Part shown: in pieces, positions 20,769-63,401 of the stretch | Layout of the letters: each line of letters starts with the position of its first letter | Position numbering within the stretch: the stretch's first letter is position 1 | NCBI RefSeq assembly: GCF_000284095.1 | Contig: NC_017068.1 | Location: 1,674,001 to 1,738,000 of the forward strand | DNA: 64,000 nucleotides | Origin: Selenomonas ruminantium subsp. lactilytica TAM6421 | Lineage (GTDB): Bacteria; Bacillota; Negativicutes; Selenomonadales; Selenomonadaceae | Direction of reading: 5' to 3' | The notes under the pieces: model-generated | What the model saw: only the letters and a program-made list of their open reading frames with translations | Told to the model about the DNA's origin: nothing | Databases searched by the model: none | Made by a program: the position numbers and the translations under genes

Positions 20769-21369
20769 ATTGCAGTTTGTAGGGGCGTTCGTGCTGAAGG
20801 TATCCCGTTCATGCGCAGTCAGGGGTTCACGGGGGAGTACTTTTTCTGTTTCCGCTAAAACGACCCTCTCGGCAATTTTAGAGCTATTTAGCCAGATGGC
20901 GCCGGGCAAGACCGGCGGCGCGTCTTTCAGCGTGCTTTCTAGTAACTGCTTACCTCGGGCCGGTCTTCGCTGCGCTCAGACAGTCGCTCCCACAGAAAAA
21001 GCACTCCCCCGTTCGCCCCAGCCACGTTTTTGGCAATCGGCACGAACCGTTTCTCTTGTGACAAGAACATCGATGTACTTGTATCCTCCAGCCAAAACAT
21101 AGCAGCATTGACAAACGTAGCTCCGGGTGGCGGTGGGGATGCTTTTCCGCCGGCGGAACGACTGCCTGAACGAAGTGAAGGCTGGCCCGCAAACAGCATT
21201 TGCTGGAAACTTCGTTGATGGACGCGCCGCCGGTCTTGCCCGGCGCAGGTTGCTGGAAGATACATACTTTTGCTGGCGGGTCATTTAGTGAAGCGGCGAA
21301 AAAGTATTCCCACCGCCGCCCCACTGAGCTGTAACAAAATAGTTCAGGCTCGCATCCACAAACTGCAAT
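20769..21369 (+). repeat. Palindromic 601-bp repeat element, copy 2 (intact)
   Basis: The ends are perfect 12-bp inverted repeats (ATTGCAGTTTGT and complement). The two halves are diverged inverted copies of each other. Both contain GCGCCGGGCAAGACCGGCGG in opposite orientation (about 20899-20921 and 21224-21246), a GGGCC...CTTCG block and an A-rich AAAAGCA...CCCC block at matching distances from the centre. The transcript could fold into one very long hairpin from either strand. No credible gene is present. It matches the IS-split copy at 6151-8472. Confidence 0.82.
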
Positions 21370-54451: not shown

Positions 54452-54904
54452 TTACGAGAAATTTTCCAACGTCAGCAGCATGGTCTTGAGCATCCGCACC
54501 CGTTCCTTGTCGGTAATACTTTCCGACTGAAAGATGGATACCACGAACTGCATCATCAGCGATGCTTCCCGGGCCGTTACCATCTCATGCTGCAAAAGGT
54601 ATTTGATCATGGACTGCACCACCGGCAATTCCGTATCTGGCTTGATAGCCGCCAGCATATCCTCATAGACCATGTTCTTGACCGGCACCTGCACGATGCG
54701 GATAAAGCCGCCCAAGCCACGGCGGGACTCCACCACAAACCCCTTATCCTGAGTAAAACGGGTGGACAGTACATAACTGATCTGGGAAGGTGCACAGGAA
54801 ATCTCGTCGGCGATATCCGTGCGCCGCAATTCCACCTTGCCATCTTGCTGAGTGGCCAGCTGCCGTAAAATATAGGCTTCAATCAAATCGGCAATATTGC
54901 TCAC
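54452..54904 (-). CDS. ctsR: Stress-response repressor CtsR
   Basis: Winged-helix repressor of class III heat-shock genes. CAPSQISYVLSTRFT and the glycine-rich wing VESRRGLGGFIRI identify it. The GTG at 54904 is preferred as the start: AAGG is 8 bases upstream and the product begins VSNIADLIE, as in other CtsR proteins; the ATG at 54910 is only 2 bases from that site. 150 residues. It is the first gene of the operon and probably represses itself through the sites just upstream. Confidence 0.94.
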   Translation of the reverse strand: MSNIADLIEAYILRQLATQQDGKVELRRTDIADEISCAPSQISYVLSTRFTQDKGFVVESRRGLGGFIRIVQVPVKNMVYEDMLAAIKPDTELPVVQSMIKYLLQHEMVTAREASLMMQFVVSIFQSESITDKERVRMLKTMLLTLENFS

Positions 54905-54934
54905 TTTCATCACCTTCTATAAATTCAATTACAA

Positions 54935-55491: not shown

Positions 55492-56208
55492 TTACGAATA
55501 AAGACCTGCGCGATCGTTGATAACGAACACTCTCAGCATATCGAGCGATAGATCGAGACTTTCTCCGTTGCCCTGCAGCAACCCTTTGCCAATCATTTTT
55601 TCGACCGTCGGTTTCGCCCAATCAGGAACAGCATCGACCGTATTGAACCGTTCGGCGCCACGGCCCGCCTGCTTGCTGTCGTCCTGCTCCTGCGGCGCCT
55701 CAGACATATCTTCGATACCGTGCGACTGGTTGTAGTAAAAGATTGCTTTACCTACGATCGTACCATCATCAAGCAGCGCTTGCAGGTTATCGCCTGGGCA
55801 ATCCGTGGACATGAGTTCGCCGTGACCGACAATGTGTGCACGATCAAACGGGATGCCGTACCGTTCGCAAATATCGGCCACCAGCGCTCCGCAGCGGTCA
55901 ATCTGTTCTGCGGTTGGTTCGACTGCAGAGAAATCGCCGGACAGGTGGATGCCAATCGTGTGACTATTTTCCCCATACGCATGGGAGCCTATAGCCCATT
56001 CAGGCCGTCCACGTTCGATGGTGCCGTCCTTGCGGATCACGTAATGGTAGCCGATACCAGCCCAACCGTTGCCGAGATGCCAGCCGTGAATCTACTCTGC
56101 GCTGGCATCCATGTCTGGCGAGCCTGTGTGATGAATCACAATCATGTCCGTATAGCTGCGCTCAGAAAGGCTCGTGAATTCGAGCCCAGTTTCCAAAATA
56201 TCCAGCAT
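55492..56208 (-). pseudogene. Phage N-acetylmuramoyl-L-alanine amidase with an in-frame amber stop
   Basis: Endolysin of the amidase_2/PGRP family. Read through, it has 238 residues with the zinc His in VIHHTGSPD, the GWAGIGYHYVIRKDG core, GIHLSGDF, the second ligand region HIVGHGE and TDCPGD, then a C-terminal linker and a repeat-like tail. Codon 39 is TAG (56092-56094) where relatives have a Glu-like residue before IHGWHLG, so one base change (GAG to TAG) explains it. The first zinc ligand lies before the stop, so a protein restarted downstream would be inactive. The start at 56208 overlaps the preceding small gene's stop region. Confidence 0.85.
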
Positions 56209-56213
56209 ATCAA

Positions 56214-56378
56214 TCATCCTTTCTTGTTCGGTCGGAAACTGCAGGGGAATGGGCACATATCAAACAGACTGTGCTCCATCTCATCCAGCGTCCCAACATA
56301 AAATCCTTGCCGCCGCGCTATATATGCAAAGGCAGCAAATGCTTCATATAATTCTTGCCAAGCTAATGCATTCATCAT
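56214..56378 (-). CDS. Small phage protein between holin and lysin (54 aa)
   Basis: A 54-residue frame (ALAWQELYEAFAAFAYIARRQ near the start, then DEMEHSLFDMCPFPC). Its ATG overlaps the holin stop (ATGATG next to GGAGG) and its TGA lies 5 bases ahead of the amidase ATG, so all three are translationally linked. No family is recognised; the position suggests a lysis accessory. Confidence 0.55.
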   Translation of the reverse strand: MMNALAWQELYEAFAAFAYIARRQGFYVGTLDEMEHSLFDMCPFPCSFRPNKKG

Positions 56379-56833
56379 TCCTCCGGTTTCTCCCGCGCTT
56401 TCTTTTGCTGGGTCAGTTGTTCAAGCGACTCGACAATCCTGGTCGGTATCGGCACGCCAGCTTTGGCGGCATTTTCCGTGATGCTGAGCCCCTCATTGGC
56501 GATGTAGAAATAAATAGCCATGGCGTATATTTCATTGGAATTCAGCGACACGCTGATTCCGTGCGCTACGGCTACAATCAAAATGATAAATACCTTGCGG
56601 GCGATTCCCTTATATCCCCGCCTGCTGTCCAAAGCAAGATTCGGGTTGATGTAGGCCGCCAGCATTCCGCTGATGTAGTCGAGTGCGATCAGCGTGAGCA
56701 GGGTCTCAAGTGCGCTGTTCCATGCACCAAACATAAAGGTAAACAGCCCGCCCACTATCCCGACAATTGTTCCCCATACAGCTTCCATGCGTACTGGTAT
56801 CATTGATCTAAGCACCTCGTAAATTGCATTCAT
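56375..56833 (-). CDS. Phage holin (Phage_holin_4 family)
   Basis: A 152-residue membrane protein with about three helices. LLTLIALDYISGMLAAYINPNLALDSRRGYKGIARK is the family motif, followed by IILIVAVAHG and the YFYIANEGLSITENAAKAGVPIP stretch. It would permeabilise the membrane for the lysin. The start is the ATG at 56833 with AGGA just upstream; the longer frame to 56911 overlaps the divergent recombinase. Confidence 0.9.
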   Translation of the reverse strand: MNAIYEVLRSMIPVRMEAVWGTIVGIVGGLFTFMFGAWNSALETLLTLIALDYISGMLAAYINPNLALDSRRGYKGIARKVFIILIVAVAHGISVSLNSNEIYAMAIYFYIANEGLSITENAAKAGVPIPTRIVESLEQLTQQKKAREKPEE

Positions 56834-56885
56834 ATCCTGTAATTTTCCCCCTATGCTATCCTCATATATGAGGAGATGATTATTG

Positions 56886-57903
56886 ATGAAACTACCTAAC
56901 GGCTTCGGCACCGTCTACAAATTATCCGGTAACAGGCGGAGGCCGTATGCAGTCAAAAAGACCATTCAGGGAAAGCAGAAATATCTTGGATACTTTGAAA
57001 CCTTTGAGGATGCCATGGCATTCCTTGTGGACTACAACCGCGACCCTGCCCTGCTCTCCCCCAGCAAAACTACATTTGCTGAGGTCTATGCGCTTTGGAA
57101 GGCAAAACACTTCCCTGAAATCCGCCCGAGTCAGTTACCGTAATAGCTACCGCCACTGCTCCCGCCTCCATTCCATGAAATTCGTTGATATTCGGCTGTC
57201 GCACCTTGATATGGTGATTGATGATGTGCGGTCGAAGGGATGCGGCCATCCGACACAAAAGAAAGTCAGGTCTCTGCTGGAACAGCTTTATAAGTATGCC
57301 GCACGCTATGACCTCGTTACCCGTGACTATGCCCGATACCTTGATATTGACCGGCATAAACCGAAGGTCAAGAAAAAGCCCTTCACCGTCCGCCAGCGGA
57401 ATAAATTGTGGCGGGGACTGGATGAAATGCCCGAACAGACCAAAATTGTGCTCATGCTGATATACTCCGGGTGCCGGGTGGGCGAATTTCGCCACATCAA
57501 AAAATCTGACGTAAAACTGCGAAGAAGGCTTCTCGTTGTGCGCCATTCTAAGACCGACGCAGGACGAAACAGGTATATTCCTATACCTAAGAAGCTAATG
57601 CCTTGGTATGAGGCTCTCATGCAGTCTGAGGGCACATACCTCTGTACGCGTACAAATGGTTCTCGCCACACGTACGATTCCTTCCGCCGGGCAGTATTTA
57701 ACCCTGTGATGGAGCATTTCAACTTGAAACACACACCTCATGAGTGCCGGCACACTCTTGCCAGCATGCTCGACTCTGCCGATATCAACCGAACTGTTAC
57801 AAAATTAATTTTGGGTCACTCTCTTGAAGGAGTTACTGAACGAGTCTACACGCATAAATCCGTCCGCGAATTACTGCGTGCCATAGACAAGGTTTGTAAC
57901 TAA
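56886..57903 (+). pseudogene. Frameshifted phage-type tyrosine recombinase
   Basis: The N-terminal part (56886-57143; KLPNGFGTVYKLSGNRRRPY, an arm-binding domain, then TFAEVYALWKAKHFPEI) and the rest (about 57128-57903; YRNSYRHCSRLHSMKF, SAM-like, then the catalytic domain) are in different frames, shifted around 57118-57130. Catalytic residues are present in the second part: IYSGCRVGEF, HTPHECRHTLASML, LGHSLEGVTERVYTH with the nucleophile Tyr. It is encoded opposite to the late genes, between the tail-fibre region and the holin, an odd place for an integrase and close to the invertible fibre segment. A sequencing error cannot be excluded. Confidence 0.82.
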
Positions 57904-57978: not shown

Positions 57979-58143
57979 TCAGTTCTCGGTTGAAGTGGCT
58001 TCCTCCGTTGCTGGCGCTGGCTCCGCAGGGGTTTCCTCCGTCTTTTCGGGGACGTACAAACAGCAATTTTTGTTCTGGCACGTGCCATCCGGACGAACCA
58101 CTTTACGGCAACGTGGGCAACGCTTTTTCACTACAAAAGGCAT
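57979..58143 (-). CDS. Small phage zinc-ribbon-like protein (54 aa)
   Basis: The N-terminal half has CPRC and, 11 residues later, C-x4-CC (CQNKNCC), enough for one zinc site. The C-terminal half is a Glu/Pro/Thr/Ala-rich tail (EETPAEPAPATEE). GGAGGGATAAGTT precedes the ATG. It starts 3 bases after the fibre-assembly gene's stop. The family and role are unknown. Confidence 0.6.
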   Translation of the reverse strand: MPFVVKKRCPRCRKVVRPDGTCQNKNCCLYVPEKTEETPAEPAPATEEATSTEN

Positions 58144-58146
58144 AAC

Positions 58147-58554
58147 TTATCCCTCCAATTCTTTAATAGCTGCATCAAGTGCAGCATCCAAATCCTGCAT
58201 CTCAGTCTGGATCTCTTCCGCCAGCTCCGTGTCAGCGTGAATCATCGCATCCATGTACTGCTCGGTAAGAGTTGCCTTGGCAGCGTTATACTCAGCTATA
58301 ATGCTGGCCTTTTTCTCATCCGTGCTGGGCGTATAAGCGGGCGCATCTGTCGGCTTGCCATCGGCTCCACGGACATAACCAGTACCGTTTTTCCCGGTGC
58401 CCTTGTTGCCGACATAATACGACCACTCGTCCTCGTCAATCTCGATATAGCCGTCAGCGATAAGTTCTTCACGTTTCTTATCGTCGATTGAATTATCCAG
58501 CGGATATGATGAGATTCGTTTTCCGTCAGAATCAAATTTTGATAAATAATTCAT
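58147..58554 (-). CDS. Putative tail-fibre assembly/chaperone protein
   Basis: A 135-residue protein directly downstream of the fibre locus. The N-terminal half is a small beta domain that reads like the tip-contacting part of fibre chaperones (YLSKFDSDGKRISSYP, GYIEIDEDEWSYYVG), and the C-terminal half is a helical, Glu/Ala-rich coiled coil (AEEIQTEMQDLDAALDAAIKEL). The start is the ATG at 58554 with AAAGGAG upstream. Its position just outside the invertible segment means both fibre forms share it. The assignment rests mainly on context. Confidence 0.6.
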   Translation of the reverse strand: MNYLSKFDSDGKRISSYPLDNSIDDKKREELIADGYIEIDEDEWSYYVGNKGTGKNGTGYVRGADGKPTDAPAYTPSTDEKKASIIAEYNAAKATLTEQYMDAMIHADTELAEEIQTEMQDLDAALDAAIKELEG

Positions 58555-58591: not shown

Positions 58592-58625
58592 AATGGAGTG
58601 ATGGCTTTATTGAACAGTGGGGAAC
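58592..58625 (+). repeat. Inverted repeat, left crossover site
   Basis: 34 bases identical to the complement of 59092-59125; the adjoining bases on both sides differ. It codes for the conserved WSDGFIEQWG hinge. Confidence 0.92.
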
Positions 58626-58848
58626 ATATGAAATAACATCCGGCAATTGGAAAGAATATAGTTTTCCAATTGCGTTCCCTAATGCTTGTTACGGGGTGGT
58701 GACAACACCCGTCCCTAATGCGGGAACATCTAGTGCCGCGTCTTCAGTACCGGCTACAATAGCAAGTTATACAAAAACTTCATTTTTTGCCGCGCTCTCT
58801 GATACCACGGCCGGTTGGCGGTTTGTTGCATTTGCACTAGGCGAATAA
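58592..58848 (+). other. Silent alternative fibre C-terminus
   Basis: An open frame without its own start, opposite in strand to the fibre gene. After the shared WSDGFIEQWG it encodes 74 residues (TYEITSGNWKEYSFPIAFPN... ending WRFVAFALGE), a phage fibre tip domain of the same type as the expressed one, whose matching part has 78 residues. It is the unexpressed cassette of the switch. Confidence 0.85.
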
Positions 58849-58856
58849 AATAAGTA

Positions 58857-60230
58857 TTAATAACCAACGGCTATCCAATCAAATTTCAGCTTCGTATTCG
58901 ACACGCCAGAATAGATATGGGCTATCATATTTGATGTTGTTGCGTATATATTTAACGACGTTGTTATTAAATCGCTTTGACTAGTGCTATTAGTGTTTTG
59001 GTTAATCATCCCCATAACTTTTGGTGTCGATGTGAATGCGATGGGGAATGTAACAGGTTGACCCGCGGATGGGAATTGCGCAGGGTCAACAGTTCCCCAC
59101 TGTTCAATAAAGCCATCACTCCATTTACGATACCCGTTCACACCGTAGTGAGATGCTACCACTGTACCGTGAGCACCTGCGTCGTTGAGCTTGGACAGCA
59201 TTGCAGGCGTCATCAAACCGTTAGCAGATGCGCTGACTACGCCGTAGGTCGTATTGTTATCCGGTGGGACTGACCAAGTCCCGTCCTCGCGTAAGTATTT
59301 GGTGGCGCCTGCTGTCGTTGGCGGTTTCGGTACTAGGCCTGCAGCGGCACTGCCGCCCGAGCGGACGAAGGTACTATACTTGGTATCATTGTCTGGCGGA
59401 GTTTGCCATGTGCCATCCGCGCGCAGGTATTTTCCTTGGCTGCCAGCTGCAGGTTGAGGAACGAGCCCTGAAGTACCTGACGCCGAAGCAGATGCACCTG
59501 TCATTGTAGAAATCGCCGCCCATGTACCATCACCGCGAAGAAAAGCTCCCTGCTTGCCTGCAGCAGGAGTAGGAACAAGTCCTGCTGTACCAGCTTTGGA
59601 TGCAGATGCGCCTGTCATCGTTTCGTAGGTCGTGTCTTGCGTGGTGAGATTAATAGTGGTGCCGTCGCCTTTGGTAAACGTGATTTGCTTACCGGAAATA
59701 GATGCATTCTTGATGCACGCATCGAAAAGCACCTTATGGGCCTCACCGCTGCTATTATGATCAGCCAAATCTCGTGCGGTGAGGAGCCCATTTGGGTCAA
59801 TCACGGCAGTTACGGAACTATCACTGGAAATCTGGATCGTAAGGTTCAATGCTTCACTGACTACTGTTACGCCGCCCTTGGCTTGCAGATAGTCTGGGTG
59901 ACTATCTACGGTTACAGCGTAGAGAATTTCACCATCATCCGGATCGGTAGCATAGAGCCCCAGCTCTCGGAGTGTATAACCGTAATCAAGGTTTGCATTA
60001 GAAACAACGCCTTCGACAATGCATCGGCCCGCGTCAACGCTAATCGATGATATCGTGATAATTTGTTTAGGACTCACGAGATCCGTAAGCCCCTCAAGGG
60101 TTTGTTCGCTCGTAATTGCTCCGTCACCAAGTTTCATTTTTGTAAGCTCCAACTTACAAAGGCCAGCTTCTACCTTGGCACTTAGTGCCTGTCCTTTCTT
60201 TGTAAGTGTATAGCCCTGCCAATCAGCCAT
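58857..60230 (-). CDS. Phage tail fibre (gpH-like), variable C-terminus
   Basis: A 457-residue fibre. The N-terminal DUF3751/fibre attachment domain (YTLTKKGQALSAKVEAGLC) binds the baseplate. The shaft contains three imperfect repeats of the form GLVP-x-P-x2-G-x-QGKYLR-x-DGTW (about residues 215-325). The C-terminal tip begins at YRKWSDGFIEQWG and ends FDWIAVGY. The last 78 codons and the hinge lie in the invertible segment. It overlaps the gpI gene by 8 bases. Confidence 0.9.
   Translation of the reverse strand: MADWQGYTLTKKGQALSAKVEAGLCKLELTKMKLGDGAITSEQTLEGLTDLVSPKQIITISSISVDAGRCIVEGVVSNANLDYGYTLRELGLYATDPDDGEILYAVTVDSHPDYLQAKGGVTVVSEALNLTIQISSDSSVTAVIDPNGLLTARDLADHNSSGEAHKVLFDACIKNASISGKQITFTKGDGTTINLTTQDTTYETMTGASASKAGTAGLVPTPAAGKQGAFLRGDGTWAAISTMTGASASASGTSGLVPQPAAGSQGKYLRADGTWQTPPDNDTKYSTFVRSGGSAAAGLVPKPPTTAGATKYLREDGTWSVPPDNNTTYGVVSASANGLMTPAMLSKLNDAGAHGTVVASHYGVNGYRKWSDGFIEQWGTVDPAQFPSAGQPVTFPIAFTSTPKVMGMINQNTNSTSQSDLITTSLNIYATTSNMIAHIYSGVSNTKLKFDWIAVGY
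59092..59125 (-). repeat. Inverted repeat, right crossover site
   Basis: 34-base partner of 58592-58625, inside the fibre gene at the hinge between shaft and tip. Confidence 0.92.
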
Positions 60231-60867
60231 TGATATTAACCTCCTTATGAATGTGCTGCGCGGTATTTAAGAAGATCGCGTCGAAGATGTTCGGGGCTGT
60301 GAATTTTGGTAGCCCTATCATGACGGTCTTATTAACATAAGTTGCAGCAGTAAAAAAGAATTTTGTATCAACGGTGCGGGAAAACTCCACACCATCGAGC
60401 CAGCTTCTGGCGTTTTTAGCTTCATTTATTGCCCGTACCAGTTGCCTTATTGTTTGGGGCGATGTCATAGGGCCCTCGATGAGGGCAACCTTGAAGTGAT
60501 AAGGTTCGCCACCATATTCAAACCACTCCTGTACATGTGCTCCATCAAGGATTGCACTGACAACGGATTGGACTGCATACGGCGTGCCTTTTAGCTTGTG
60601 CCATCCAATGCTTTGCTTAACCAGTTTTCGCTTAGTGCCTATATCAAAAGATGAATCATAGGCATCTACGTGGAACTGCCAAGCCAGCTGGTCAACGATA
60701 TCCTCCTCTAGCTCATCGATACGGGATATTAGTAGTACATATTTAATCTGTTCTGAGATATCATGCATTGATACGTCAAGAGCTTTGGCGGCGCTTTGTA
60801 CTTCCTTATCTCTGGCCAAGTTCTCGGGCATAATATCCAGCAGACTTAGCTCGGATAATTTAATCAT
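60223..60867 (-). CDS. Baseplate/tail protein gpI (P2 type)
   Basis: A 214-residue P2 gpI-family protein that links baseplate wedge and tail fibre. The N-terminal SLLDIMPENLARDKEVQ and the central DQLAWQFHVDAYDSSFDIGTKR, then KLKGTPYAVQSV are characteristic. It sits between gpJ and the fibre, as in P2. It overlaps gpJ by 8 bases. Confidence 0.9.
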   Translation of the reverse strand: MIKLSELSLLDIMPENLARDKEVQSAAKALDVSMHDISEQIKYVLLISRIDELEEDIVDQLAWQFHVDAYDSSFDIGTKRKLVKQSIGWHKLKGTPYAVQSVVSAILDGAHVQEWFEYGGEPYHFKVALIEGPMTSPQTIRQLVRAINEAKNARSWLDGVEFSRTVDTKFFFTAATYVNKTVMIGLPKFTAPNIFDAIFLNTAQHIHKEVNING

Positions 60868-61978
60868 CCGCTACACCCCCATAGGTGACTGTCCGAGAAT
60901 CGGAGGCCACGGCCACAGCGGTATTATCGACGGAAGTCATAACCGGACTTGTGACTGTTACCTTACATGCGCCGGCTGCAACAATCAGCTGATAGAGTTT
61001 TGATGGGTCGAGATCTCGGCCAAGTTTCGCTCGCTGCCAATTCACGTAATCATTAACCGCCTCAGCAACTTTTGCCTGTATGGTTCCAGCTTGTTCTGCA
61101 TCGTCAGAAGCTATGTGATACGTTAACTCAATATCGTAAGATATTGCTGTTGGCGCGACCACGGTAACAAGGTCAGTCAAAGGTCTAATCTTACTATCGT
61201 TGCATACCTCGTTGACATCAGCTAATATCTCATCGCCTGGGATTTCGCCATCAGCAAGCAGAGGATAGATATTGACGTGACCCGGTTCTGGGGAAATAAC
61301 TTTCACATCCACAATCAACGATGATGCGGTCTTTGCCCAGAATTCATAAGCACCAGCTGGGCCAGCACACGAGAAAGATTCAGGGGCTTCATGGATGCGC
61401 TCCCGGTATGCATCATCGTTCTCGGTGGATGCGCCACCCGCGCTCGTCGTGATATTCACGATGCTATCGACATAGGCGACAGGATCGACAATCATCATGA
61501 GCTGACCTGGGACATATCCATTCCCTGATACGCCGACGTCGGTACAAGTTGCTGATACTGTTCCTTCTGTTTGGCCAGCGACAATCGTCAAAACTCTGTC
61601 AGTAGCAAAGAACATCGTCTTATCTTCTGTCGTTACCCTTGTACCGACAGGGATGATTACCGCCGATGGCTGCACAGCAGACAGCGTAACTTTTAATGTG
61701 GTCGTTGCTGCAGATGCAGGGATTCTTGTGGTATCAACCAATACGCCAAGATGGTCTAAGAAATCGCCTTTCGCATACGCCAGAAGATTCATCTTCCCCG
61801 TGTAATTCAGTTTGCTTCTAAGCTGAGCAAGTTCATCAGCGACTGACTCAAGGAATAATCTGACAGGGTCACCTTTTGCCAAGGTTCTACCGGATACTTT
61901 TTCGTATAAATTAATAACCTCTGTCTTAACATTATTGGTATCCGCATTAACGAAAGTTATATCATTCAAGTTATTCAT
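60860..61978 (-). CDS. Baseplate protein J
   Basis: A 372-residue gpJ/Mu gp47-family baseplate wedge protein. The N-terminal YAKGDFLDHLGVLVDTTRIPASAA, GGASTENDDAYRERIHEAPESFSCAGPAGAYEFWAK and VKVISPEPGHVNIYPL are diagnostic. It overlaps gpW by 4 bases. Confidence 0.92.
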   Translation of the reverse strand: MNNLNDITFVNADTNNVKTEVINLYEKVSGRTLAKGDPVRLFLESVADELAQLRSKLNYTGKMNLLAYAKGDFLDHLGVLVDTTRIPASAATTTLKVTLSAVQPSAVIIPVGTRVTTEDKTMFFATDRVLTIVAGQTEGTVSATCTDVGVSGNGYVPGQLMMIVDPVAYVDSIVNITTSAGGASTENDDAYRERIHEAPESFSCAGPAGAYEFWAKTASSLIVDVKVISPEPGHVNIYPLLADGEIPGDEILADVNEVCNDSKIRPLTDLVTVVAPTAISYDIELTYHIASDDAEQAGTIQAKVAEAVNDYVNWQRAKLGRDLDPSKLYQLIVAAGACKVTVTSPVMTSVDNTAVAVASDSRTVTYGGVADD

Positions 61979-62289
61979 TCATTAATCACCACCTGTACTG
62001 TAGGGAGAAGTTCCCCCTCCTCTCCATTGCCGTCAAACGTTACATTTAGCACCTTAGCTCTTGGTTCATAGGTCTCTATGGCCTCCACAATTTGCCGCGT
62101 AAGCTGGCTGATTGCGTGAGGGGTAGGATTATCAAGCATTGACACGTCAAGGCCGAAATCACGGTCTAGTCTAGCCTCTCCTTTCGCCGTTGTGAGGATT
62201 GTTTTTACATTCTGCATGATTTCCTCTAGCTCAGTAGCTGGAAGGAAATTAACTTTCGCTAGATCCGCTGTTATATTGATGACGCTCAA
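61975..62289 (-). CDS. Baseplate wedge protein gpW/gp25-like
   Basis: A 104-residue gp25-like protein with lysozyme-like fold. ILTTAKGEARLDRDFGLD and YEPRAKVLNVTFDGN fit the family. It belongs to the tight late operon (4-base overlaps on both sides). Confidence 0.88.
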   Translation of the reverse strand: MSVINITADLAKVNFLPATELEEIMQNVKTILTTAKGEARLDRDFGLDVSMLDNPTPHAISQLTRQIVEAIETYEPRAKVLNVTFDGNGEEGELLPTVQVVINE

Positions 62290-62816
62290 GTCAATACACC
62301 TCCCAGAATTCTCGAGTTTGTAGTGGCCTCATAATATTCCTGCATGGACAGATTCACGTCGAGGCCTGCAACAGTACCATCGATGTAGTGTGTCGCGGTG
62401 GCCTCAACACTTTCAATGAGCCATTTTTTCCCTACAGGCTTACCACTAACCACAAAAGTCAGCACTTCACCGGTCTCACAATAACTGCGGAGTATTTCAA
62501 GGCATGATTCTGGGTTTACTCCGAGCCACTTTCGTAACTTGATGCCTAAAGTCAATGTCGTGATATCTGGCCCTTGGAACTCTAGCACTGGTTTGCTGGC
62601 AATGATGTCATGTTTTGCGATGCGGGCCTTGAAACTTCGCTTATATTCATCAAAAGTAAGACAGTCATTATAAGCAGCTACTTTAAAGGTCACATCTCCC
62701 AGGGACCCTATCTCATTGGCGGCCCCAGGGTTAACACCCAGCGCCTTTGCGTATTTATTTATCGCACTGGTTAAGCCTTTCATGCCGGCTTTTTTCAATT
62801 TACTTTTCCAATCCAT
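62286..62816 (-). CDS. Phage tail protein gpU-like
   Basis: A 176-residue protein of the P2 gpU type: an N-terminal helical part, then SLGDVTFKVAAYNDCLTFDEYKR, SKPVLEFQGPDITTLTLGIKL and a C-terminal beta part. In P2, gpU terminates the tail tube. Here it lies between PAAR and gpW, a non-P2 order. Confidence 0.78.
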   Translation of the reverse strand: MDWKSKLKKAGMKGLTSAINKYAKALGVNPGAANEIGSLGDVTFKVAAYNDCLTFDEYKRSFKARIAKHDIIASKPVLEFQGPDITTLTLGIKLRKWLGVNPESCLEILRSYCETGEVLTFVVSGKPVGKKWLIESVEATATHYIDGTVAGLDVNLSMQEYYEATTNSRILGGVLT

Positions 62817-62819
62817 AGC

Positions 62820-63110
62820 TCAACCTCCAACGAAAACATTTCCGCTCCCTGCTGCAATACTGCCCCCACAGGATACAGGATCACCAACGCGTCCCGCTGG
62901 ACTGCTGTTGATGAATACCGTAGAACTGCCTGAGGCAATCACTCCACTGTGTGCGGAATGAGCAGGGCAAGAATGTGGGGCATAACTATCGCCCACACGG
63001 CCTGCGCCTATGCCATTAATGAACACGTTGCTACTAGCGGATACCAAAGACGTAGGCGGGCATGCATCATGTCCTGTATCGGCATCACCCAATCTTGTAA
63101 TTGCTGGCAT
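62820..63110 (-). CDS. PAAR-domain spike tip protein
   Basis: A 96-residue PAAR protein that caps the tail spike. TRLGDADTGHDACPPT starts it; two internal V-F-I-N-x2-x-x-G-RVGD repeats and the His/Cys set (HSCPAHSAHSG, CGG) would hold a metal ion at the tip. The start is the ATG at 63110 with AAGGAGG upstream. Confidence 0.9.
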   Translation of the reverse strand: MPAITRLGDADTGHDACPPTSLVSASSNVFINGIGAGRVGDSYAPHSCPAHSAHSGVIASGSSTVFINSSPAGRVGDPVSCGGSIAAGSGNVFVGG

Positions 63111-63121
63111 TTCCCCCCTCC

Positions 63122-63330
63122 TTAGTTGATATTGACCGTCGAGCCATTGATGACTACAGGCCCTGTACATTGTATGGTCAATCCGCCCGTAGCTCGGTTA
63201 AACTCTACAAAAGAGCCGTCGCCAAAGTCTATGCGGCGGATATCGCCATTCGTACTATTAGGGGGCTGCGCTTCACTAAAGAATGTTCCCAGTATAAAGC
63301 CATTGGAGTTAGAATATAAATAGTACAAGT
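63122..63330 (-). pseudogene. Baseplate assembly protein gpV, 3' remnant
   Basis: About 65 C-terminal residues of a P2 gpV-type spike protein (GFILGTFFSEAQPP, RRIDFGDGSFVEFNRATGGL, ending INGSTVNIN). The frame continues upstream only into the IS3 element's end, so the 5' part is cut off or lies beyond the IS, outside the window. The left border of the remnant (about 63310-63340) is approximate. Confidence 0.7.
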
Positions 63331-63401
63331 CAAAATGAGAAATCCTAAATAAGTTCATGACATGGTACAATATATGTACCTATCTTGAGGAGGATTTCAG
63401 A

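Follow-up and report, generated by a model that had tools for sequence, protein, structure and literature searches.

Tail-fibre tips help to set which cells a phage enters. Exchange of C-terminal tips by a tyrosine recombinase is familiar from the R64 shufflon, where Rci shuffles the tips of a plasmid pilus-tip adhesin. Among phages, the available parts of one study describe Rin of Bifidobacterium prophages as a phage tyrosine recombinase whose neighbours are a constant gene for the receptor-binding protein and several short cassettes for its C-terminus. Its 11-bp crossover site is present in the gene and at each cassette, and inversions were detected by comparison of prophage and virion sequences. 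The same parts describe Rin as having no arm-type domain (PMC6109161). In the clade 1 prophages of Eggerthella lenta, as far as the available part of that report goes, a Rin tyrosine recombinase accompanies a constant gene and small genes for tips which frequently contain H-type lectin domains, and a separate tyrosine integrase is situated at the other prophage end (PMC8778435). In the FRphi gin tail-fibre shufflon, which uses a serine invertase, tip choice sets the receptor; isoform C2 is given in the available text as the one able to infect Enterobacter, via FhuA (PMC13418256).

The locus analyzed here lies in a window of 64,000 nucleotides (the whole stretch of DNA that was studied), representing positions 1674001-1738000 of a 3,003,680-bp contig in a genome of 10 contigs and 3.63 Mb. 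On the evidence below, it is very probably a reversible two-state switch of tail-fibre tips, carried by a truncated contractile-tail prophage and by now probably locked. Positions are those of the window, counted on beyond its end where needed. The features of the putative switch are as follows.

58147-58554, minus strand: tail fibre assembly-like protein (chaperone), with a weak match to phrog_188 (E 8e-5) and a better one to phrog_32639, of unknown function
58592-58625, plus strand: outer inverted-repeat arm, silent, on the chaperone side (34 nt, 100%)
58594-58848, plus strand: silent alternative tip cassette, 84 codons from W and then a stop, Gp53-like_C (translation, Pfam)
58614-58623, plus strand: putative crossover core ACAGTGGGGA, silent side, delimited from relatives
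58857-60230, minus strand: tail fibre gene, 457 aa, with Phage_tail_fib at the N-terminus (8-153) and a Gp53-like_C tip (369-457), from family scans
59092-59125, minus strand: inner inverted-repeat arm within the fibre gene, coding for WSDGFIEQWG (34 nt, 100%)
59094-59103, minus strand: putative crossover core ACAGTGGGGA, expressed side, on the Q-W-G codons, delimited from relatives

The inverted-repeat search identified the two 34-nt arms as 100% complementary and 466 nt apart. This pair ranked first for 52-64 kb, where the runner-up was 32 nt long and 75% complementary, and the next perfect pair found in the whole window was 26 nt. By our own estimate, a perfect 34-nt pair at such spacing is not expected by chance. 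The preliminary description had reported a perfect 34-bp inverted repeat bracketing two oppositely oriented tips, with the same frame in both copies and convergent stops 8 bases apart. The search and translation agreed on every point: WSDGFIEQWG is in frame in both arms, and the stop codons at 58846-58848 (plus) and 58857-58859 (minus) are separated by 8 bases. It had further stated that one flip swaps 78 residues for 74. The swap is in frame, and the counts are corrected to 77 and 73, as that count started one residue earlier; the in-silico flip changed the fibre from 457 to 453 aa after a common prefix of 380 residues. Only one orientation was seen for the source genome, in a single assembly with the locus in a 3.0-Mb contig. 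An IMG/VR copy (L037), which probably represents the same assembly, matched without difference over 8,766 nt. Upstream of a 593-aa ORF on the minus strand, the window also possesses a 26-bp perfect GC-rich inverted repeat (20899-20924 and 21221-21246) with a spacing of 296 bp.

Both tips matched PF21882 (Gp53-like_C), with E values of 2.6e-11 and 1.4e-15. The scores of the cassettes, 44.3 and 58 bits, were above the Pfam gathering cut-off of 24.9, and therefore both are fibre tips by family. A search of the plus-strand cassette against fibre tip domains had been proposed beforehand as a check on the switch design, and the cassette matched above the cut-off. The silent tip was modelled with AlphaFold from an alignment of 43 tips (mean pLDDT 87). 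The model was closest to the C-terminal domains of the R1 and R2 pyocin fibres (6cxb and 6cl5), and 6cxb gave a TM-score of 0.75 by query length at 29% identity. Snail H-type lectins were placed lower among the structure matches with weak E-values. From this predicted fold, the tips may bind a receptor. Similar tips occur in different species, with 58% identity over 76 residues and 81% over 37 residues to tips of S. montiformis.

The preliminary description mentioned neither the recombinase at 56883-57903, nor its frameshift, nor the truncation of the prophage. The recombinase is antisense between the holin and fibre genes, and its end is 0.7 kb from the outer arm. It is represented by two pieces.

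56883-57143, plus strand: tyrosine recombinase, N-terminal piece, ending early by a frameshift (alignment with relatives)
57121-57903, plus strand: tyrosine recombinase, C-terminal piece with most of the core-binding domain and the catalytic domain (PF00589, alignment)

The C-terminal piece matched PF00589 with an E value of 5.6e-18. It contains a set of R, K, H, R, H and Y residues which aligns with the relatives and which we take to be the catalytic residues. The window recombinase is 78-80% identical to the intact 345-aa relative of Anaerovibrio sp. RM50 but is split, with the residues aligned to RM50 positions 2-83 and 85-345 falling in different frames; an intact reading frame with the catalytic set was not found in it. 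Among 11 close loci, the recombinase was broken or cut short in five (window, L057, L139, L141 and L048) and intact in six. Those of L057 and L048 break at nearly the same residue (~240) and the other broken ones elsewhere. Breakage of the invertase gene at several different positions among close loci hints at repeated loss or locking. No second PF00589 gene was found in the element; the source genome has 8 Phage_integrase and 21 Resolvase matches, and the other 7 PF00589 matches are outside the element.

About 60 residues precede the core-binding domain of the recombinase. In the RM50 model, three strands and a helix were predicted at residues 12-55, before this domain. Full-length lambda Int was at the top of the Foldseek list for the full RM50 model, but with an rmsd of 13, and VIA-align ranked the core of the Tn1549 integrase first, with the N-terminal domain poorly covered. 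The predicted N-terminal domain is thus possibly arm-type-like. Against annotated phages, the recombinase matched 31 records (best ~40% identity) and the fibre matched 27 records. All matches were below 60% identity, and therefore no phage of this family was found in the annotated-phage collection. Against plasmids, five records matched the recombinase at E<=1e-5, none of them enterobacterial.

Comparison of relatives gave three indications of inversion. In RM50, for which the junction evidence is a draft assembly, tip a2 has two junctions, one with the chaperone flank (A) and one, next to a run of N, with the constant region of the fibre (B). Tip a1 adjoins a second copy of A at the contig end. 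The second copies of A and a2 are exactly 95 nt each and would represent contig-end overlaps at a branch of the assembly graph. If the genome has one A, the junctions of A with a1 and of A with a2 cannot coexist in one orientation. Between G199 and G166, which belong to one genus, a 489-bp block is inverted at 81-85% identity with collinear flanks. The tip that G166 carries on the fibre has a 93%-identical silent counterpart in G199; another G199 tip has no counterpart in G166, and the alignment of the fibre side covers only ~170 nt. Between L136 and L137, the tip on the fibre in L136 has a 55%-identical homologue silent in L137, and another tip pair (77%) is present on opposite strands. These sequence comparisons show inversion in the relatives. 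With two tips of one family in the window, they also favor the invertible fibre-tip design put forward in the preliminary description.

Across nine loci of the window's subgroup, 34 tip starts were counted, and 32 of them have ACAGTGGGGA exactly, among them silent starts on the non-coding side. Two of the 34 sites represent the duplicated RM50 tip; the count was anchored on TGGGG, and two tips without TGGGG were dropped. Conservation outside the core was weaker, with T at -7 in 30 of the 34 starts. Among fibres with the DGFIEQWG motif but without such a recombinase in the locus, ACAGTGGGGA was present in 0 of 14 sites (from 15 loci, anchored likewise). Synonymous positions vary across these control fibres, and, together with the absence of ACAGTGGGGA from all 14, this indicates that the DNA, not only the protein, is conserved. 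The alignments point to a crossover core of ~10 bp overlying the conserved Q-W-G codons of the tip. The 34-bp arms of the window are about three times the core length seen in relatives, and no shared arm as long was found among the relatives aligned. On the silent side, the 22 bp outward of the core (58592-58613) are a copy of fibre coding sequence.

Relatives of the recombinase were found at E<=1e-10 in 29 of 200 related genomes. The collection scans covered at least 80 genome loci and at least 80 viral loci, plus smaller sets of 5 and 16, and the tip HMM was built and iterated in this analysis. Several of these loci have larger arrays. Three to seven Gp53-like tip matches were found beside the recombinases of S. 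montiformis (L057), Anaerovibrio (L055 and L056), Phascolarctobacterium (L062 and L068) and the viral contigs L135-L139, L143 and L145. Phascolarctobacterium L062 has eight open tip cassettes when counted by its site. In Candidatus Phascolarctobacterium caballi (L060), the tips are of a Q-G-G type with the repeat CAGGGTGGTA, and the array is upstream of the recombinase, not downstream. Another, collar-type tip forms arrays in Megasphaera massiliensis (L058), L053 and viral L142. These tips mostly start with T/V-x-E-hydrophobic (as in TDEMPSH) and end with W(R/K)R plus two residues, and their HMM was seeded with 8 tips from the same three loci. One recombinase adjoins two collar-tip arrays in each of them.

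L058: 9130-9675 and 10727-11510
L053: 7897-8961 and 9984-10522
L142: 6736-7133 and 8140-8709

This arrangement suggests that one enzyme may shuffle two fibres in these loci.

To place the recombinases, a tree of 148 rows was constructed, in which 185 long recombinases were thinned at 97% identity to 144 and four partial ones were added. All 17 loci with at least two Gp53-like tips were grouped in one 28-row clade (FastTree support 99), and this clade had a support of 99.6 in an IQ-TREE subset of 66 rows (the 28 and 38 others). With both tip types considered, at least two tips within 6 kb were present in 20 of the 28 rows, or 21 when the wider stretch L234 is taken for row L025. The HMMs for both tip types detected no tips near the recombinase in any of the 120 rows outside the clade. 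The 7 clade rows without two tips by HMM comprise L018, L036 and L054 with one tip, L148 with one collar tip, L197 and L206 with none, and L059, whose contig ends after 197 bp; the array status of L018 comes solely from comparing its DNA with that of its relative. Throughout the clade the recombinase is found in this neighbourhood, usually with tips on both strands; in L020, L068 and L234 the tips are confined to one strand. Of the viral rows outside the clade, about half have an upstream flank but almost no sequence downstream of the recombinase; its end was at most 150 bp from the end of the record in 26 of these 53 rows, versus 0 of the 10 viral rows inside. Such a difference would follow if most outside rows were integrases at the ends of prophages. 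The clade has the appearance of a branch of integrases which turned into a dedicated invertase family, and the window locus is a reduced, two-tip form of this multi-tip family.

Of 27 clade loci (L059, too short, was left out), 14 have a small CxxC...CxxxxC ORF like that of the window no more than 1.3 kb past the recombinase, versus 0 of 80 loci outside. It was found in all nine loci of the window's subgroup. This zinc-ribbon-like ORF of ~54 aa separates the invertase gene from the chaperone gene in the window (57979-58143, minus), in L046, L056, L057, L135-L139 and in others. PHROGs and Pfam gave no function for it. Our guess is that the protein steers inversion; it may equally be an ordinary late gene.

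The genes around the switch belong to a contractile-tail phage.

55492-56040, minus strand: endolysin, Amidase_2 (family scan)
56375-56911, minus strand: holin, Phage_holin_4_1 (family scan)
57979-58143, minus strand: small CxxC...CxxxxC (zinc-ribbon-like) protein, 54 aa, between the recombinase and chaperone genes
60223-60867, minus strand: Tail_P2_I (family scan)
60860-61978, minus strand: Baseplate_J (family scan)
61975-62289, minus strand: GPW_gp25 baseplate wedge (family scan)
62286-62816, minus strand: Phage P2 GpU (family scan)
62820-63170, minus strand: PAAR-motif protein (family scan)
63122-63370, minus strand: baseplate assembly protein fragment beside an insertion element (phrog_9992, E 1.8e-4)

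The element is bounded by CtsR (54452-54913) and a phosphoribosyltransferase ORF at 72989, presumably pyrE. The fragment of the baseplate gene is adjoined by a transposase pair at 63357-64597 (HTH_Tnp_1 and rve), which we take to be of the IS3 type. Past this insertion element, the region 65116-72985 (L004/L005) contains a repressor-like HTH protein, a trypsin-like protein, Abi_2, a split serine recombinase and ORFs of unknown function, and is possibly a defence-bearing remnant at the integration site. The family scans found no head, sheath or tube genes between CtsR and the phosphoribosyltransferase ORF (beyond the window, among ORFs of at least 90 aa) and no phage structural genes beyond the transposase pair. 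The P2-type prophage named in the preliminary description is a remnant with lysis, fibre and baseplate functions. The nearest PF00239 gene, ~12.5 kb off and beside the phosphoribosyltransferase ORF, is a serine recombinase split over two frames (1745623-1746040 of the contig). It is plausibly the remnant of the true integrase.

We propose that the two Gp53-like tips face each other between two crossover sites of ~10 bp over the Q-W-G codons. The neighbouring tyrosine recombinase, as the candidate inverting enzyme, would cleave the two sites and turn the 0.5-kb segment around. The constant 380 residues of the fibre would thereby be joined in frame to either tip, the other tip remaining silent, and the choice of tip would alter the receptor. 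The frameshift in the recombinase would have left the switch frozen, unless the segment is still flipped by a trans-acting enzyme or by RecA at the long arms. The switch of the window is most likely frozen, because the recombinase frame is broken and the prophage is truncated. The same switch could still be active in the strain, with both tips made in the population, if the enzyme is supplied in trans or if the frameshift is a sequencing error, which it might be; the switch may then be live. The arms and both tips are intact and in frame, the residues taken as catalytic are retained in the C-terminal piece, and the integrase and resolvase matches of the genome offer possible enzymes. Against this stand the broken frame, the single orientation in the 3.0-Mb contig and the truncated prophage. 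Recombinases were also broken in 4 of the 10 other close loci, and therefore the loss seems common and real. We regard an active switch as unlikely, though with an appreciable chance.

Other routes to the same arrangement were less consistent with the data. Tips could be exchanged independently of the recombinase if the 34-bp arms recombined homologously with each other or if the locus did so with other prophages. The length of the arms in the window and the sharing of tips across species are in favor of this. In the relatives, however, the common sequence is only ~10 bp, likely too short for RecA, and yet inversion was seen there, which renders this route improbable. The gene at 56883-57903 could also be the integrase of the prophage, accidentally beside the fibre gene, with the repeat an inert product of duplication. 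Its fold and sequence are integrase-like, with lambda Int and Tn1549 Int among the best matches. But the gene is antisense inside the late operon, its neighbourhood is found again throughout the clade, in most cases with both strands carrying tips, none of the 10 viral clade rows is at a record end, and inversions are indicated in relatives. Clade membership, record-end counts and tip counts thus disfavor the integrase-only reading, which we consider a little less probable still. The preliminary description had likened the locus to the Gin switch of Mu and Cin of P1. A miniature serine invertase system of this type would share the logic of alternative C-termini in opposite orientation, but the adjacent enzyme and its clade are tyrosine recombinases (PF00589). 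The PF00239 search of the genome found no serine invertase adjacent to the locus, the nearest Resolvase match being the split gene described above. The comparison with Gin and Cin is accordingly set aside as an account of the enzyme, a serine system here being extremely improbable.

The preferred reading of the window, a fibre-tip switch served by the neighbouring tyrosine recombinase, can be extended to the clade. This wider proposal, taken jointly, appears to us evenly balanced between holding and failing. It states that the tyrosine invertases of Negativicutes prophages form one family, not described before, which derives from integrases, has an arm-type-like N-terminal domain and is devoted to the shuffling of fibre tips. 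Changes of tip type (Q-W-G, Q-G-G and TxEMPSH-like) would have been accompanied by at least two retargetings of the enzyme. In every case the DNA encoding the first conserved motif of the tip would itself be the short site, and protein constraint and recombination site would thereby be locked together. The enzyme would often be accompanied by a zinc-ribbon-like protein that may assist or direct inversion, and could serve two fibre arrays at once. Among the matches listed from literature on Selenomonas, Phascolarctobacterium, Megasphaera and Negativicutes, most subscription papers being outside this scope, no description of this Negativicutes system was found. If the family is real, it would extend the tyrosine-invertase mechanism from the actinobacterial prophages of the cited papers to diderm gut Firmicutes. 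It would be a clear case of an integrase-like enzyme turned invertase with its site following a protein motif, and would offer natural sets of interchangeable receptor-binding tips. A fibre sequence taken from just one assembly of such a prophage may represent one among several states.

Among the known systems, Gin, Cin, Min and the FRphi gin shufflon, as the available sources describe them, share invertible fibre C-termini with the window locus, but their enzymes are serine recombinases, and no such gene adjoins it. Unlike R64 Rci, the locus is in a 3.0-Mb contig, and none of the five plasmid matches of its recombinase is enterobacterial. The tail fibre C-terminal domain of R-type pyocins shares the predicted fold of the silent tip. 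The likeness to Rin is more extensive, comprising a tyrosine recombinase at the fibre locus, here frameshifted, a constant gene with silent cassettes (one in the window, three to seven Gp53-like tip matches in relatives) and a short site, a 10-bp core in relatives versus ~11 bp, the arms of the window being 34 bp. The hosts of the Eggerthella lenta Rin are actinobacterial in the available text, unlike those of the Negativicutes loci. The present system also differs from Bifidobacterium Rin in its Negativicutes hosts, its contractile P2-like phage, its Gp53-like or collar-type tips and its site, ACAGTGGGGA or others; the arm-type-like fold predicted before the core-binding domain is a possible further difference. 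By analogy of design, not by sequence kinship, the system appears to work like Rin, which is the closest analogue found.
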